From: Bacillus sp. FSL H8-0547
GTDB lineage: Bacteria > Bacillota > Bacilli > Bacillales > Bacillaceae
Length of the DNA stretch: 64,000 nucleotides
NCBI GenBank assembly: GCA_038002745.1
Contig: JBBODD010000001.1
Location: 3,906,001 to 3,970,000 of the forward strand
Reading direction: 5' to 3'
Below are positions 18,313 to 43,017 of this stretch, piece after piece. How positions within the stretch are numbered: position 1 is the first letter of the stretch; each line of letters opens with the position of its first letter. The position numbers and the translations under genes are program-made. Under the pieces are notes generated by a model, which saw nothing but the letters and a program-made list of their open reading frames with translations, was not told where the DNA came from and did not search any database.

Positions 18313-18511
18313 ATGCGAAAAAAGTCGGAATAGCGCAGGCAGAAAGAATCATTTTTACTGTGAAAACAACTATACTGACATAAATAATTCTCGGAGTATT
18401 CTAGTTGTCCAACAAGAAGATATTGGTATTTTCCAACATTTTTTCTATTCTTATTTTGACGTAAGCTTTAAAAACAGGTAAAAAGTCACAATAAACAAAA
18501 TAAATCAAATA

Positions 18512-18540
18512 TTGACATAATTCCCACCATTTCTTACTAT
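18512..18540 (+). promoter_or_regulatory. SigA-type promoter of the peptide locus
   Basis: TTGACA at 18512-18517, a 17-base spacer and TACTAT at 18535-18540: a near-consensus vegetative promoter in a very AT-rich stretch. Transcription would start near 18547, about 55 bases before the peptide ATG. Between the previous terminator and this promoter (18313-18511) I see no gene and no clear operator. Confidence 0.75.
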
Positions 18541-18601
18541 TACATTATAATTCAATATTTACATAAATATGGATTAAATAAAAACAGGGGAGGCTGTCAG
18601 G

Positions 18602-18664
18602 ATGAAGAAAATTAAAATCAAAAAAGTTGAAAAGCTGGTTGCTCTTGTAAACCATCACGCGTAA
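18602..18664 (+). CDS. 20-residue putative modified-peptide precursor
   Basis: ATG 18602 is eight bases after AGGGGAGG, an unusually strong ribosome site. The product is MKKIKIKKVEKLVALVNHHA, then TAA. The first 16 residues are a basic, amphipathic leader-like segment; NHHA is the only part with modifiable side chains. It is followed by a hairpin and then by two enzymes that each start with a PqqD-like (RiPP recognition) domain, the usual context of a ribosomally made, modified peptide. There is no signal peptide. The function is inferred from context only, and the coding status rests on the promoter, ribosome site and neighbours. Confidence 0.72.
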   Translation: MKKIKIKKVEKLVALVNHHA

Positions 18665-18669
18665 TGAAT

Positions 18670-18712
18670 AAAAGGCTTTAGGACAAGCATCAGAGTCCCT
18701 AAAGCCTTTTTT
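18670..18712 (+). terminator. Hairpin between peptide gene and modification genes (partial terminator)
   Basis: GGCTTTAGG-AC / GT-CCCTAAAGCC stem followed by TTTTTTA. It begins six bases after the peptide stop and ends 24 bases before the E1 gene. Such a hairpin usually gives high peptide expression with limited read-through into enzyme genes. Confidence 0.8.
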
Positions 18713-18735
18713 AGTATAAGGGAGCTGAAAAACAG

Positions 18736-19875
18736 ATGAAACCTGTCTTAAAAACCATTTATACGCCAATCATCGTATTTGAAGGCAAAGTTCAGATCGG
18801 CAAAGAGGATGGCAATCTTGAACTTGAGGATCTTGATGGAAGTGTCCAGCACCTGCTGAACCTGATGGACGGTACAAGAAATACAATTGAGCTGGCAAAT
18901 GAAATGAACATAGATCATGCAGATTTACTTGAAATACTGAATGACCTGGATGAATATGGACTTGTTGAAGATGCTTCAGCAATCGAACACACATGTCTAA
19001 GTGAAAATGAACTGGAAAGGTACAGATCAAATCTCAACTACTTTTCCAATTTTTCAACCTTGAAGAGAAGCAGATTCACTTACCAGGAGACCTTAAAAAA
19101 TACAACGGTTGCCTTGCTTGGACTCGGAGGCTTTAGTTTAACAGCAGCTGCACTTGCAGGGATGGGAACCGGCAGAATTATAGGCCTTGATTATGATTCG
19201 GTTGAACTCAGCAACCTTAACCGCCAGTTTCTATACTGTGAGGACGACATTGGGAAACTTAAAACAGAGGCTTCAAGCAATCGCTTAAAAAAGATTAACA
19301 GTGAAATTGATGTTGATGTACATAATGTGAAAATTGAAGATGCAAAAAGTCTGCTGCCGGTAATAAAGGAAGCGGATATTGTCATTAACGGGATCGATCA
19401 GCCAAGCATTTTATCTACAAGATGGGTGAATTTTGCCTGTGTCAAATTAGGCAAGCCTTACATTCTTGGAGGCATTGGACACACGAGTATTATTCTCCAA
19501 AAATATGTTCCTGGTGAAGAAAACGGGTGCTTTGATTGCTATTTGATGAACAGTTTACGGGAAGCACCAGAATTTATCCACCAGCTGAAAGCGGTTTACG
19601 GAGCTTCTTTTCAAAAGAGAAACACAGCTTTTGCTCCTAATATTGCCATGATTACTGGTCTGGTAACAAATGAACTGGCTAAACAAATTGCGGGATATGA
19701 AAGAGCCGAGAATCAATCTTCGTCTCTTGAAATCAGCAGTCTATCATTTGAACGATTATCTGAAACTCTATGGAAAAAAGCATCGGGCTGTCCGACGTGC
19801 AATGGCCATATGAACTCAGATGAGCCTGCAGAACTGAATATAATTCTGGAATTATCTAAAGAAAGCAGGGTCTGA
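18736..19875 (+). CDS. E1/ThiF-like adenylating enzyme with N-terminal PqqD-like domain
   Basis: 379 residues. Residues 1-85 look like a PqqD-like peptide-binding domain (EDLDGSVQHLLNLMDGTRNTIELA and a winged-helix end). The E1 domain has the nucleotide loop GLGGFS (129-134), acidic LDYDSVE (151-157), Arg163 in NLNRQF, GIDQP (219-223), and the two structural zinc pairs Cys265/Cys268 and Cys352/Cys355. All key residues of ATP-dependent carboxylate activation are kept. The ordinary partners (ThiS, MoaD) are absent here; the only adjacent small protein is the 20-aa peptide. Members such as MccB adenylate a peptide C-terminus, so the terminal carboxylate or an acidic side chain of the peptide is the likely target. 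ATG 18736 follows AGGGAG. The M50 gene starts directly after its stop. Confidence 0.85.
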   Translation: MKPVLKTIYTPIIVFEGKVQIGKEDGNLELEDLDGSVQHLLNLMDGTRNTIELANEMNIDHADLLEILNDLDEYGLVEDASAIEHTCLSENELERYRSNLNYFSNFSTLKRSRFTYQETLKNTTVALLGLGGFSLTAAALAGMGTGRIIGLDYDSVELSNLNRQFLYCEDDIGKLKTEASSNRLKKINSEIDVDVHNVKIEDAKSLLPVIKEADIVINGIDQPSILSTRWVNFACVKLGKPYILGGIGHTSIILQKYVPGEENGCFDCYLMNSLREAPEFIHQLKAVYGASFQKRNTAFAPNIAMITGLVTNELAKQIAGYERAENQSSSLEISSLSFERLSETLWKKASGCPTCNGHMNSDEPAELNIILELSKESRV

Positions 19876-21075
19876 ATGAATATAACATTAGATTCTAAAG
19901 TAACGGCAAAGCTTTCTGTTCAGGCAGACGGAGAAGAATTTACAGTCGGAGACCCAGTCAGCGGTACATTTATCCGGGTCCCGTATGAAGCTGTTCACAT
20001 CATTCATATGCTGGACGGTGTCAGAACGCTGAACGAAATTTCTGAACAGCTGAGAAAAGAACAAATGGATGCGGATGTTTTAGATTTTGTCGAAATTCTG
20101 CATGAGCTTGAGTTGATCTATTCGATTGACGGGAAGGTCTTTTTAATTCCGCCTGATGAAAAACCTGTCAGCAGATCTCTTTCTGCTGCAGCTTCCTTCA
20201 TTTTTCATCCGATCAGTCAAGTATGTTATGTCCTGTTTTTTCTTCTCAGTATTGGTATGATTGCAGGTATTCCTGAATTGCGTCCTGACTACAAAGATTT
20301 TTGGGCTGCAGAAGCAACAGGGCTAAGTCTTTTGTTATTATTTTTCATTTCCTGGCCGCTGACCATTCTTCATGAACTGGGCCATTATTTAGCTGCTTTA
20401 AGACTTGGTATACCGGTTAAATTTAATTTGAGTCTGAGATTTTACTGGCTTGTGGTCGAAGCAGATATGACAGGGCTCTGGTCAGTTTCCAAGCAGAAAA
20501 GGTATTTGCCCTATGCTGCAGGAATGGCTATTGATTCTTTTCTTCTTTTTTTATCATTAGCCGGTCAGATGACGGCTGCAGGATTTGCCTTGAAGCTTTT
20601 GAAAATGATTACGCTGCTTCTTGTGATGAGATTTGCCTGGCAGCTTTTAATTTTTCTGCGGACAGATATTTATTTTCTGATCATGAACAAACTTAACATG
20701 CCAAGCCTCCATGGATATGCAAAAGAAATAATCACGGGGTATATGCGGAAAAAAGATCGTGCCGAAAGCCTGAAAGAAGAATTATCCGAAAAAGAAATGT
20801 CCTATGTTAAAAGCTTTGCATCATGTTACCTTATTGGCGGCATCATTGCAGCAGGACTACTGTTCTTGTATAGTCTGCCAGGGCTTTACATGCTGCTGAA
20901 GCAGACAATGGTGCAGCTTTCCGTCTATTCTTTAAACAGCTTGCTATTCTGGGACGGCATCATTACACTGGCTGTCTTATCTGTAAATGCTGTGATTTGG
21001 GGCATTGGTGCAGTAAGTAAATATAAAGGAAGCAAAACGGGTACACTACCTATTAGCTCAAATGAAGCGACTTAA
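19876..21075 (+). CDS. M50-family membrane metalloprotease with N-terminal PqqD-like domain
   Basis: 399 residues. Residues 1-92 repeat the PqqD-like theme (VPYEAVHIIHMLDGVRTLNEISEQL), then several transmembrane helices (about 115-131, 148-165 and more). HELGH at 166-170 is the zinc motif of site-2 type intramembrane proteases, and Asp220 in GMAIDSF is a candidate third ligand. Such proteins occur in peptide-modification loci, where they may cut the leader or take part in export. The gene begins at the base after the E1 stop, with no gap, so the two are co-translated. A terminator follows. No ABC exporter or immunity gene is adjacent. Confidence 0.82.
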   Translation: MNITLDSKVTAKLSVQADGEEFTVGDPVSGTFIRVPYEAVHIIHMLDGVRTLNEISEQLRKEQMDADVLDFVEILHELELIYSIDGKVFLIPPDEKPVSRSLSAAASFIFHPISQVCYVLFFLLSIGMIAGIPELRPDYKDFWAAEATGLSLLLLFFISWPLTILHELGHYLAALRLGIPVKFNLSLRFYWLVVEADMTGLWSVSKQKRYLPYAAGMAIDSFLLFLSLAGQMTAAGFALKLLKMITLLLVMRFAWQLLIFLRTDIYFLIMNKLNMPSLHGYAKEIITGYMRKKDRAESLKEELSEKEMSYVKSFASCYLIGGIIAAGLLFLYSLPGLYMLLKQTMVQLSVYSLNSLLFWDGIITLAVLSVNAVIWGIGAVSKYKGSKTGTLPISSNEAT

Positions 21076-21105
21076 ACATGCAAAGAGCCACTTGCATGTT
21101 TTTTT
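21074..21105 (+). terminator. Intrinsic terminator closing the peptide locus
   Basis: AAACATGCAA / TTGCATGTTT hairpin with an AGAGCCAC loop and a T run, overlapping the M50 stop codon. It shows that cdsA downstream is a separate unit. Confidence 0.85.
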
Positions 21106-42063: not shown

Positions 42064-43017
42064 GTGTCAGCATCTAAAAACAGGAAATGTTTGCTTGAAA
42101 GCGAAGAAGTAATCAGGCTTTACAAAGATGGTAAGAGCACCTCGGAAATTGCCAAACTGGCAGGTGTTACAGCAGGGAGCATACTTAATATCCTTTCAAA
42201 ACACGGGGTAGAAATGCGGCCGAGGGGGAGCTGGAAGAGGAAGTACAGTTTAGATGAAGGTTACTTTAAGAAATGGACACCCAATATGGCCTATATCCTC
42301 GGGTTTATACTGGCAGATGGTACGATTGCAAAGGGAACACAAAGCGTTATCATCGCTCAAAAAGAAAGCGAAATACTCGAAAGAATTAAAAAGGAACTTA
42401 AAACAATTCAACCTCTTTATAAAAATGAAAAAACCGGTGTTTTTCTTCTTAACCTCAACAGCAAAATCTTAAAAAGAGATTTAATTGAACTTCACGGAGT
42501 AACTTCAAAAAAGTCATTGACCATTGATTTTCCTGATGTTCCCGAAGAATACATGCCGCATTTTATTAGAGGTTATTTCGATGGTGACGGCAACATCTAT
42601 TCCAGAGGGTATATGGTTAGTTTTGTAGGGGGTTCACTTCCTTTTATGGAGAAATTGAAAGAAGTTTTTATCAAAGTGGGATTTGATCCTTACTTAGTTC
42701 AAAAAGATAAACATGTAAGACTTTATATAAGTGGAAGAAAAACGATCAAACTATTTTATGAGTACATTTACAATTGCAGTGACATTCACCTTAAACGTAA
42801 GTTTGATCTTTTCCCAGACAAAGATCTTGATGCTGCTGAATTAACCGACGCTCCATTAAAAGTGAACAAAAAAGCCGTACAAGACAGAAAACAAAAGTTT
42901 ATTGAAGCTTACAGAAATTCAAGCTCACTTGATAAAGCATGCAGTATTTGCGGGATAAGCAAGACAACTTATACTCAATGGATAAAAAAAGACAAGAACT
43001 TCAAAGATCAACTATAA
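42064..43017 (+). CDS. Free-standing LAGLIDADG homing endonuclease-like protein with two helix-turn-helix domains
   Basis: 317 residues. An N-terminal helix-turn-helix (EEVIRLYKDGKSTSEIAKLAG, about 15-35) is followed by two LAGLIDADG helices, ILGFILADG (78-86) and FIRGYFDGDG (167-176), both with the catalytic acid, and a C-terminal helix-turn-helix (LDKACSICGISKTTYTQWIKK). Both acidic residues are kept, so nuclease activity is possible. It is not inside a gene or visible intron. GTG 42064 follows GGAGG; codon use is more AT-rich than in the neighbours. It ends 160 bases before the dif candidate, suggesting arrival as a mobile gene at the terminus or recruitment to a regulatory role. Confidence 0.85.
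   Translation: MSASKNRKCLLESEEVIRLYKDGKSTSEIAKLAGVTAGSILNILSKHGVEMRPRGSWKRKYSLDEGYFKKWTPNMAYILGFILADGTIAKGTQSVIIAQKESEILERIKKELKTIQPLYKNEKTGVFLLNLNSKILKRDLIELHGVTSKKSLTIDFPDVPEEYMPHFIRGYFDGDGNIYSRGYMVSFVGGSLPFMEKLKEVFIKVGFDPYLVQKDKHVRLYISGRKTIKLFYEYIYNCSDIHLKRKFDLFPDKDLDAAELTDAPLKVNKKAVQDRKQKFIEAYRNSSSLDKACSICGISKTTYTQWIKKDKNFKDQL

Follow-up and report, generated by a model that had tools for sequence, protein, structure and literature searches.

Gene content of the cassette

The window analyzed here is a 64,000-nt stretch (contig JBBODD010000001.1) of the chromosome of Bacillus sp. FSL H8-0547, which is a Metabacillus chromosome. It contains a three-gene cassette, arranged as one unit (Table 1), that encodes a 20-residue peptide (MKKIKIKKVEKLVALVNHHA), a ThiF-like (E1-like) adenylyltransferase (hereafter E1; 93% identical to the E1 of Metabacillus indicus, of the same genus), and a site-2-protease-like membrane metalloprotease (hereafter M50), the start codon of which directly follows the E1 stop codon. 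Both enzymes have an N-terminal domain that resembles the recognition element (RRE) of ribosomally synthesized and post-translationally modified peptides (RiPPs). The precursor family, both enzymes with their RREs and catalytic residues, and the rule at the third-last precursor residue described below can be read from the sequences themselves, on which basis the cassette is very probably a RiPP locus.

Table 1. Features of the cassette (window coordinates).
Feature	Position	Strand	Basis
Candidate sigma-A-type promoter, TTGACA-17-TACTAT	18512..18540	+	10/12 consensus matches
Ribosome-binding site of the peptide gene, GGGGAGG	18588..18594	+	Sequence; few bases before start
20-residue precursor peptide and stop	18602..18664	+	Profile rank; M. 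indicus identity
Leader (putative), residues 1-15	18602..18646	+	MKKIKIKKVEKL, same in six loci
Core VNHHA (putative)	18647..18661	+	Third-last residue His18 at 18653-18655
Hairpin and T-run between peptide gene and E1, terminator- or attenuator-like	~18672..18712	+	Folding energy
RRE-ThiF (E1-like) adenylyltransferase, 379 aa	18736..19875	+	Pfam, conserved residues, profile, model
RRE (winged-helix) domain of E1, ~residues 1-83	18736..18984	+	Profile and model
RRE-M50 (site-2-protease-like) membrane metalloprotease, 399 aa	19876..21075	+	Pfam, invariant residues, daptide model
RRE domain of M50, ~residues 1-88	19876..20139	+	Profile comparison
HELGH zinc motif of M50, residues 166-170	20371..20385	+	H166, E167, H170 invariant in 39/39
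Terminator-like hairpin behind the cassette	21074..21101	+	Mechanical terminator scan

The precursor peptide family

Of 80 genomes searched in the family, 9 have a match to the window's E1 (at 1e-20), and of 397 in the order, 19 (at 1e-35); in four further families, which overlap with the earlier set, E1 was present in 2/2, 3/9, 6/34, and 1/4 genomes. Twenty-eight loci, window included, were compared (designated by L numbers; L034, L048, L049, and L089 are near copies), and the ThiF homologues L002, L003 (window's genome), L011, L012, and 15 of 20 plasmid records stood outside this comparison. Precursor candidates were first picked by eye as short open reading frames (ORFs) with ribosome sites; a profile of 27 peptides, which excluded those of the window and M. 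indicus, was then searched against the 800 nt upstream of E1. A sequence-only reading of this DNA had named the absence of a conserved short peptide upstream of homologous E1s as grounds for rejecting its interpretation; such a peptide is present, with a profile match in 26 of the 28 loci (E < 1e-4). Peptides from 24 of the 26 matching loci were already part of the profile, and the window serves as the left-out test: among its 1,937 short ORFs the profile ranks the peptide gene first (E 9.5e-8; next 1.1), as does a profile built from 11 peptides outside the clade defined below (E 6.1e-4; next 0.16). Short ORFs in the flanks of the loci served as background, and the best E among these 7,471 was 0.95.

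The leaders are conserved and run MK(K)IxVKKxEKLxPT or near, in contrast to the variable C-termini (VNHHA, VRHNW, ICHYR, AVHNA, ANHYA, QYRPPHTS, VIPYGG, YYPYIS, ILVPPPYGG, and others), and seven of the 28 loci have two to five tandem precursor copies. By codon-by-codon comparison, the leader of the window is identical in L030, L031, L032, L084, and L085 (where the start is TTG). These six loci differ pairwise by 2-6 nt with no amino-acid change, the first 12 codons showing only synonymous changes; therefore, selection acts on the peptide. Relative to M. indicus, the peptide gene is identical at 62 of 63 nt, the single change being synonymous (E1, 1048/1140), and positions 18507-18601 are identical at 92 of 95 nt, vs. 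80 of 101 immediately upstream; everything from the promoter through the stop codon is thus markedly conserved.

The 20-codon gene and the strong ribosome site a few bases before it are as the sequence-only reading described them. The near-consensus promoter that it reported is likewise conserved in M. indicus, but taken alone the match is not significant, with 13 promoter-like sites in the window vs. 9.8 ± 3.8 in shuffles. Its terminator-like hairpin behind the peptide gene does have a T-run and a folding energy of −15.9 kcal/mol (a value without shuffle control), but is missing from the mechanical terminator scan. Among known RNA elements, only Hrs13 matches upstream, and its 18.3 bits fall short of the gathering score (52).

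Two arrangements among the relatives are of separate interest. In L047, a precursor with a poly-Cys core (MKIKAKKVEKIKPTVAAGCCCCCGCC) lies 168 nt before E1, beside E1 and M50. In L035, L036, and L037, the region upstream of E1 comprises a helix-turn-helix–tetratricopeptide repeat (HTH-TPR) regulator, a 43-aa ORF (VKKLTTVVAAILLTLGF...), and then four to five tandem precursors.

The E1 enzyme and its clade

E1 matches Pfam ThiF at 5.6e-41, and nine residues are invariant in all 26 aligned relatives, namely the four zinc cysteines (C265, C268, C352, and C355) and the nucleotide-site residues N160, R163, Q164, K176, and D221; this bears out the earlier claim that all catalytic and zinc residues are in place. 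Against solved structures, the top matches of the E1 profile were MccB (6e-58) and PaaA (3.9e-50, from profile position 2). By homology and these conserved residues, E1 would carry out ATP-dependent activation of a peptide carboxylate.

A PqqD-like fold had been assigned to both enzyme N-termini in the sequence-only reading, which treated its absence as a second ground for rejection. The E1 model (predicted local distance difference test score 90.3, predicted template modelling score 0.87) shows the order of the beta3-alpha3 winged helix by which RREs bind leaders, its N-terminal region having three strands followed by three helices, whereas the M50 N-terminus is matched by profile only; single-sequence Pfam matches (HTH_47 in E1, 3.5e-4; PqqD in M50, 1.5e-3) fall under the curated cut-offs. 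Because the E1 and M50 profiles align only in their N-terminal stretch (hhalign E 2.8e-5, probability 74%), the two proteins very likely carry the same RRE. The earlier picture, in which two enzymes with RREs accompany a precursor peptide, is supported.

In a tree of 26 E1s, 14, including that of the window, lie on one side of one branch (support 100/99), and these are the E1s whose precursors carry His or Tyr third from the end (position −3); the peptides supplied the label and the enzyme sequences the tree, which omits two near copies belonging to the clade. A one-residue deletion in the GxGGxG ATP loop occurs in 14/14 clade E1s vs. 0/12 others. All 18 distinct clade precursors have Tyr (12) or His (6) at −3, as against none of the 11 distinct precursors outside the clade, and an M50 homologue directly follows E1 in all 16 clade loci. 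The conserved −3 residue is a point beyond the sequence-only reading, as is the insertion site described below.

The M50 protease and a CWWC peptide branch

The M50 protein has the HExxH motif and distal Asp in hydrophobic segments that characterize the M50/site-2 protease clan: D264, like the three zinc-motif residues (Table 1), is invariant in all 39 aligned members, and the hydrophobic stretches are present. The HELGH protease joined directly to E1 was thus correctly recognized from the sequence. Pfam Peptidase_M50 is matched at 1e-3 by 12 of the 39 members, with the window protein itself under the cut-off, and the NCBIfam daptide_HExxH model by 27 of 39 at ≤ 1e-3.

M50 homologues accompany E1 in 23 of the 28 loci. 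Among other ARRANGEMENTS, L038-L040 carry a major facilitator superfamily (MFS) gene behind E1 in place of M50, and L043 has a HELMH membrane protein (unaligned, with no Pfam match) and ATP-binding cassette (ABC) transporter genes; no M50 or substitute was seen in L087. The sequence-only reading listed no exporter gene, correctly for the window; in relatives, however, MFS or ABC transporter genes of this kind adjoin E1. In L046, solute-binding-protein genes, M50, and an MFS gene surround E1. The upstream solute-binding-protein gene of this locus is of family 5 (Pfam SBP_bac_5, 5.4e-19), with related ORFs downstream of E1; re-import of a product is possible.

RRE-M50 extends beyond E1. At 1e-15, a search of the order listed it at 60 places in 58 of the 397 genomes, vs. 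19 of 397 for E1 at 1e-35; a search of 398 phylum-wide genomes gave two matches, both within the same order. Forty-four M50 places without a known E1 were retrieved (L090-L109 and L134-L157). In 42 of them, an upstream ORF resembling MKIRKLKKIKTTCWWC and ending in a short varied tail (pattern MK[IV][RK]KL..[VI]K.TCWWC) lies between a HD-GYP homologue and RRE-M50; the remaining two contain an E1, and in L146 and L153 E1 runs past the retrieved stretch. The first 20 CWWC-branch loci all encode the HD-GYP homologue, and none encodes E1. Pfam places MASE12 and HD on both HD-GYP proteins scanned, and MASE12 also on a neighboring histidine kinase in L091. No paper on a CWWC peptide of Bacillus came up in a literature search, and this short peptide family is apparently undescribed. 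The CWWC loci are candidate peptide-sensing circuits. Because M50s without E1 adjoin CWWC leader-type peptides, RRE-M50 may be a maturation protease for peptides of about 20 residues, with or without E1.

Genomic setting and distant relatives

The cassette is flanked by a 91-aa gene and a 261-aa gene, which we take to be DUF1292-like and CdsA-like, respectively. In the window, 2,967 bp separate these two genes; in four of five other genomes of the genus (besides M. indicus) the gap is 169-206 bp and the cassette is missing, and in the fifth it is 844 bp. Because the flanking genes nearly adjoin in these genus mates, the cassette is seen as an accessory insertion, or one repeatedly lost. Among the ORFs directly flanking it, no decarboxylase, aminotransferase, or methyltransferase gene, of the kinds that belong to daptide loci, was found. 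Elsewhere in the window (42064-43017, forward strand), a 317-aa ORF resembles, by eye, a homing endonuclease of the LAGLIDADG type, presumably free-standing, with an HTH at its N-terminus.

A role in anti-phage defense and a phage-borne origin were considered and rejected. The PADLOC matches of E1 are to E1-E2 models over the ThiF part only (best 4.5e-16, starting at residue 118), nothing was returned for M50, and no E2-like gene was seen beside the cassette. E1 had no match among 50,697 phage records at 1e-20.

The plasmid-borne ThiF homologues have varied partners; of the 20 plasmid records, five were examined, two by way of their E1 match and three by way of their M50 match. A Sporosarcina plasmid carries ThiF and ABC genes, and ThiF adjoins a site-2-protease-like gene in three actinobacterial plasmids, from Nocardia (where the protease is annotated as such), Actinacidiphila, and Streptomyces (where it is "hypothetical" and was detected by similarity). 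Upstream ORFs in two of these three have a leader-like RRL[DE]..ETT stretch. The upstream ORFs of the Nocardia (L131) and Actinacidiphila (L132) plasmids end in ...RRLDKKETTGLPCSGNGAS and ...RRLERVETTNSPCANAS; these two are regarded as an actinobacterial branch. A basic or leader-like precursor candidate was seen in each of L130, L131, and L132, but no convincing one in L133 and none preceded by a Shine-Dalgarno sequence in L129 (a Niallia plasmid).

Relationship to known systems

The sequence-only reading knew of no described class for this locus; that claim is not borne out, since RRE-ThiF RiPPs are already published (PMC12250964; PMC12150305), and so is an RRE-fused intramembrane site-2 protease, MpaP, which removes daptide leaders in an RRE-dependent manner (PMC10036551). 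The window has two features that mark RiPPs of the ThiF-like adenylyltransferase type, namely a short precursor gene with a conserved leader and variable core adjoining the enzyme, and an RRE fused N-terminally to a ThiF domain with conserved active-site residues. The locus is placed within the ThiF-type RiPPs. No paper pairing an RRE-ThiF enzyme with a site-2 protease was found in the open-licence literature, a search that covered main texts and not supplements (including figure S1 of the IndF paper, on unexplored clusters). Both enzyme kinds are known; the combination of E1 with M50 and the His/Tyr tail signature look new.

Enterofaecin (EnfA/EnfB, Enterococcus) shares with the window a precursor of about 20 residues (EnfA, 21), a basic leader, and an RRE-ThiF enzyme, in which R167, K180, and D225 are named as catalytic (PMC12250964); R163, K176, and D221 of the window E1 have the same spacing (spacing only, without alignment). 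EnfB forms its ring at the backbone nitrogen of EnfA Ile19, likewise position −3 (PMC12250964). The tails of the Enf precursors are Trp/Ile-rich, and the Enf cluster includes four transporter proteins, unlike the window, where His or Tyr occupies −3 across the clade, RRE-M50 lies directly behind E1, and the ATP loop has a deletion. The enterofaecin pattern of a (V/I)RKA-like leader with a WWIVI-like end is absent from the window (leader IKKVEK, tail VNHHA); L043 comes close, its tail WWIIF resembling WWIVI of EnfA. IndA/IndF/IndP of Streptococcus pneumoniae is likewise a minimal RRE-ThiF cluster with a peptidase, but this is an M16 peptidase and the tail is NWYFI; IndF joins the C-terminus to the side chain of Trp −4 (IndF paper). 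All studied RRE-ThiF enzymes adenylate a carboxylate first, and the capture step varies (PMC12250964; IndF paper).

PaaA (pantocin A) and MccB (microcin C7) are the closest solved structures over the RRE and ThiF domains or the ThiF domain, but have other precursors and partner genes; MccA ends in Asn, as does none of the 29 distinct precursors here. The daptide proteases MpaP/DapP resemble the window M50 in that an N-terminal RRE is joined to an intramembrane site-2 protease, and they remove the leader (PMC10036551), the role proposed here for M50. The daptide leader motif is different, the window M50 scores under the daptide_HExxH cut-off, and the window precursor ends in Ala rather than in the invariant C-terminal Thr of daptides. 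TmcP, a site-2-clan intramembrane protease with a distal Asp for which RiPP leader removal was shown by mutation, differs in belonging to the DUF3267 family and in acting with a precursor that has a transmembrane helix, and the available text mentions no E1 (PMC13252029).

Proposed maturation and alternative explanations

We favor, with a probability of about 0.6 for the reading as a whole, a minimal ThiF/E1-type RiPP locus with C-terminal ring closure and leader removal by M50. The 20-mer would be the precursor, and E1 would adenylate its C-terminus, a step that homology to MccB, PaaA, EnfB, and IndF makes probable. The acyl-adenylate would be captured within the last residues, at or through His/Tyr −3, and a small ring would form with loss of water (predicted −18 Da); whether the −3 residue takes part in an intramolecular closure we judge an even bet, and its fixed His or Tyr fits a role in capture or recognition at that position. 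The same leader would also engage the RRE of M50. By analogy, this membrane protease probably removes the leader, cutting near residue 14-15, and a very short product (approximately VNHHA in the window) would be released at or across the membrane. We infer ring closure, export, and the cleavage point between leader and core. The sequence-only reading had also proposed C-terminal activation and leader removal by the membrane protease, and the support for both comes by analogy.

Several observations weigh against this scheme. Acylation of a His or Tyr side chain would be expected to give labile products, for which reason the −3 residue may serve for recognition only. Two of the 28 loci (L045 and L087) have no profile-supported precursor, five have no M50 match, and the window M50 scores 19.9 bits against the daptide_HExxH equivalog cut-off of 300. 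A T-run-linked hairpin of ≤ −10 kcal/mol occurs in only 11 of 25 loci.

The same locus might instead have an E1 that forms no ring but conjugates the C-terminus to a nucleotide (as for microcin C), to an amine, or to a target protein. MccB, as the best solved match, would agree with this, and E1-activated carrier proteins end in GG, as do seven of the 18 distinct clade precursors (10 of 18 end in G). Yet GG is absent from the window's own subgroup (ends HHA, HNW, HYR, HNA, and HYA), the terminal Asn of MccA has no counterpart, and the window lacks a second enzyme for a donor; although EnfB is also able to join amines to the C-terminus that it activates (PMC12250964), we consider conjugation unlikely. 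That the 20-codon ORF is a mere leader peptide of an attenuator governing E1-M50 expression is very improbable: a hairpin and T-run do follow it, and two of its His codons are consecutive, but the leader amino acids are kept through synonymous change, tandem copies occur, the tails of relatives vary strongly around a fixed −3 residue, and 12 of 25 loci have no T-run-linked hairpin.

With either chemistry, the product could be a peptide signal (pheromone) cut from the membrane by the site-2 protease, a plausible role that we put forward tentatively. The product would be very short, and no immunity gene was seen in the window, which favors a signal and, together with the lack of a dedicated exporter there, counts against an antimicrobial peptide. 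Immediately downstream, L048 encodes a regulator of the RNPP type (Pfam RNPP_C, 1.3e-11) that has homologues in L049 and L034; the HTH-TPR protein upstream in L035-L037 is a different one. However, each regulator is confined to one genus, where neighbors are conserved anyway, and no such regulator is among the ORFs adjoining the cassette in the window. In L035-L037, the regulator has a 43-aa signal-peptide-like ORF of its own behind it and may sense that instead, which weakens the case for sensing of the E1-M50 product by RNPP regulators; those clusters look to be under quorum control by a separate pheromone. An antimicrobial role, which we hold to be possible but doubtful, would suit the tandem, diversified precursors and the patchy, insertion-like distribution; microcin C and pantocin are antibiotics (PMC12250964).

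Implications

If the favored reading holds, a third architecture, RRE-E1 with RRE-site-2 protease, would join the ThiF-type RiPPs. Made up of only three genes, with a 20-residue precursor and a product some five residues long, it would be, to our knowledge, among the smallest known peptide-maturation cassettes. The His/Tyr at −3 with its matching ATP-loop change yields a sharp chemical prediction. A bolder proposal, which we think unlikely, is a new RiPP class of Bacillaceae and relatives, in which the short-ATP-loop E1 clade would join or relay the C-terminus of 5-9-residue cores via His/Tyr −3, a linkage undescribed for ThiF-type enzymes, and the RRE-site-2 protease would belong to a wider module also serving the CWWC peptides tied to MASE12 HD-GYP proteins; both peptide branches would then be membrane-released peptide signals. 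The link of M50 to the CWWC peptide and HD-GYP suggests that membrane-released short peptides, apparently undescribed, are widespread in the order.

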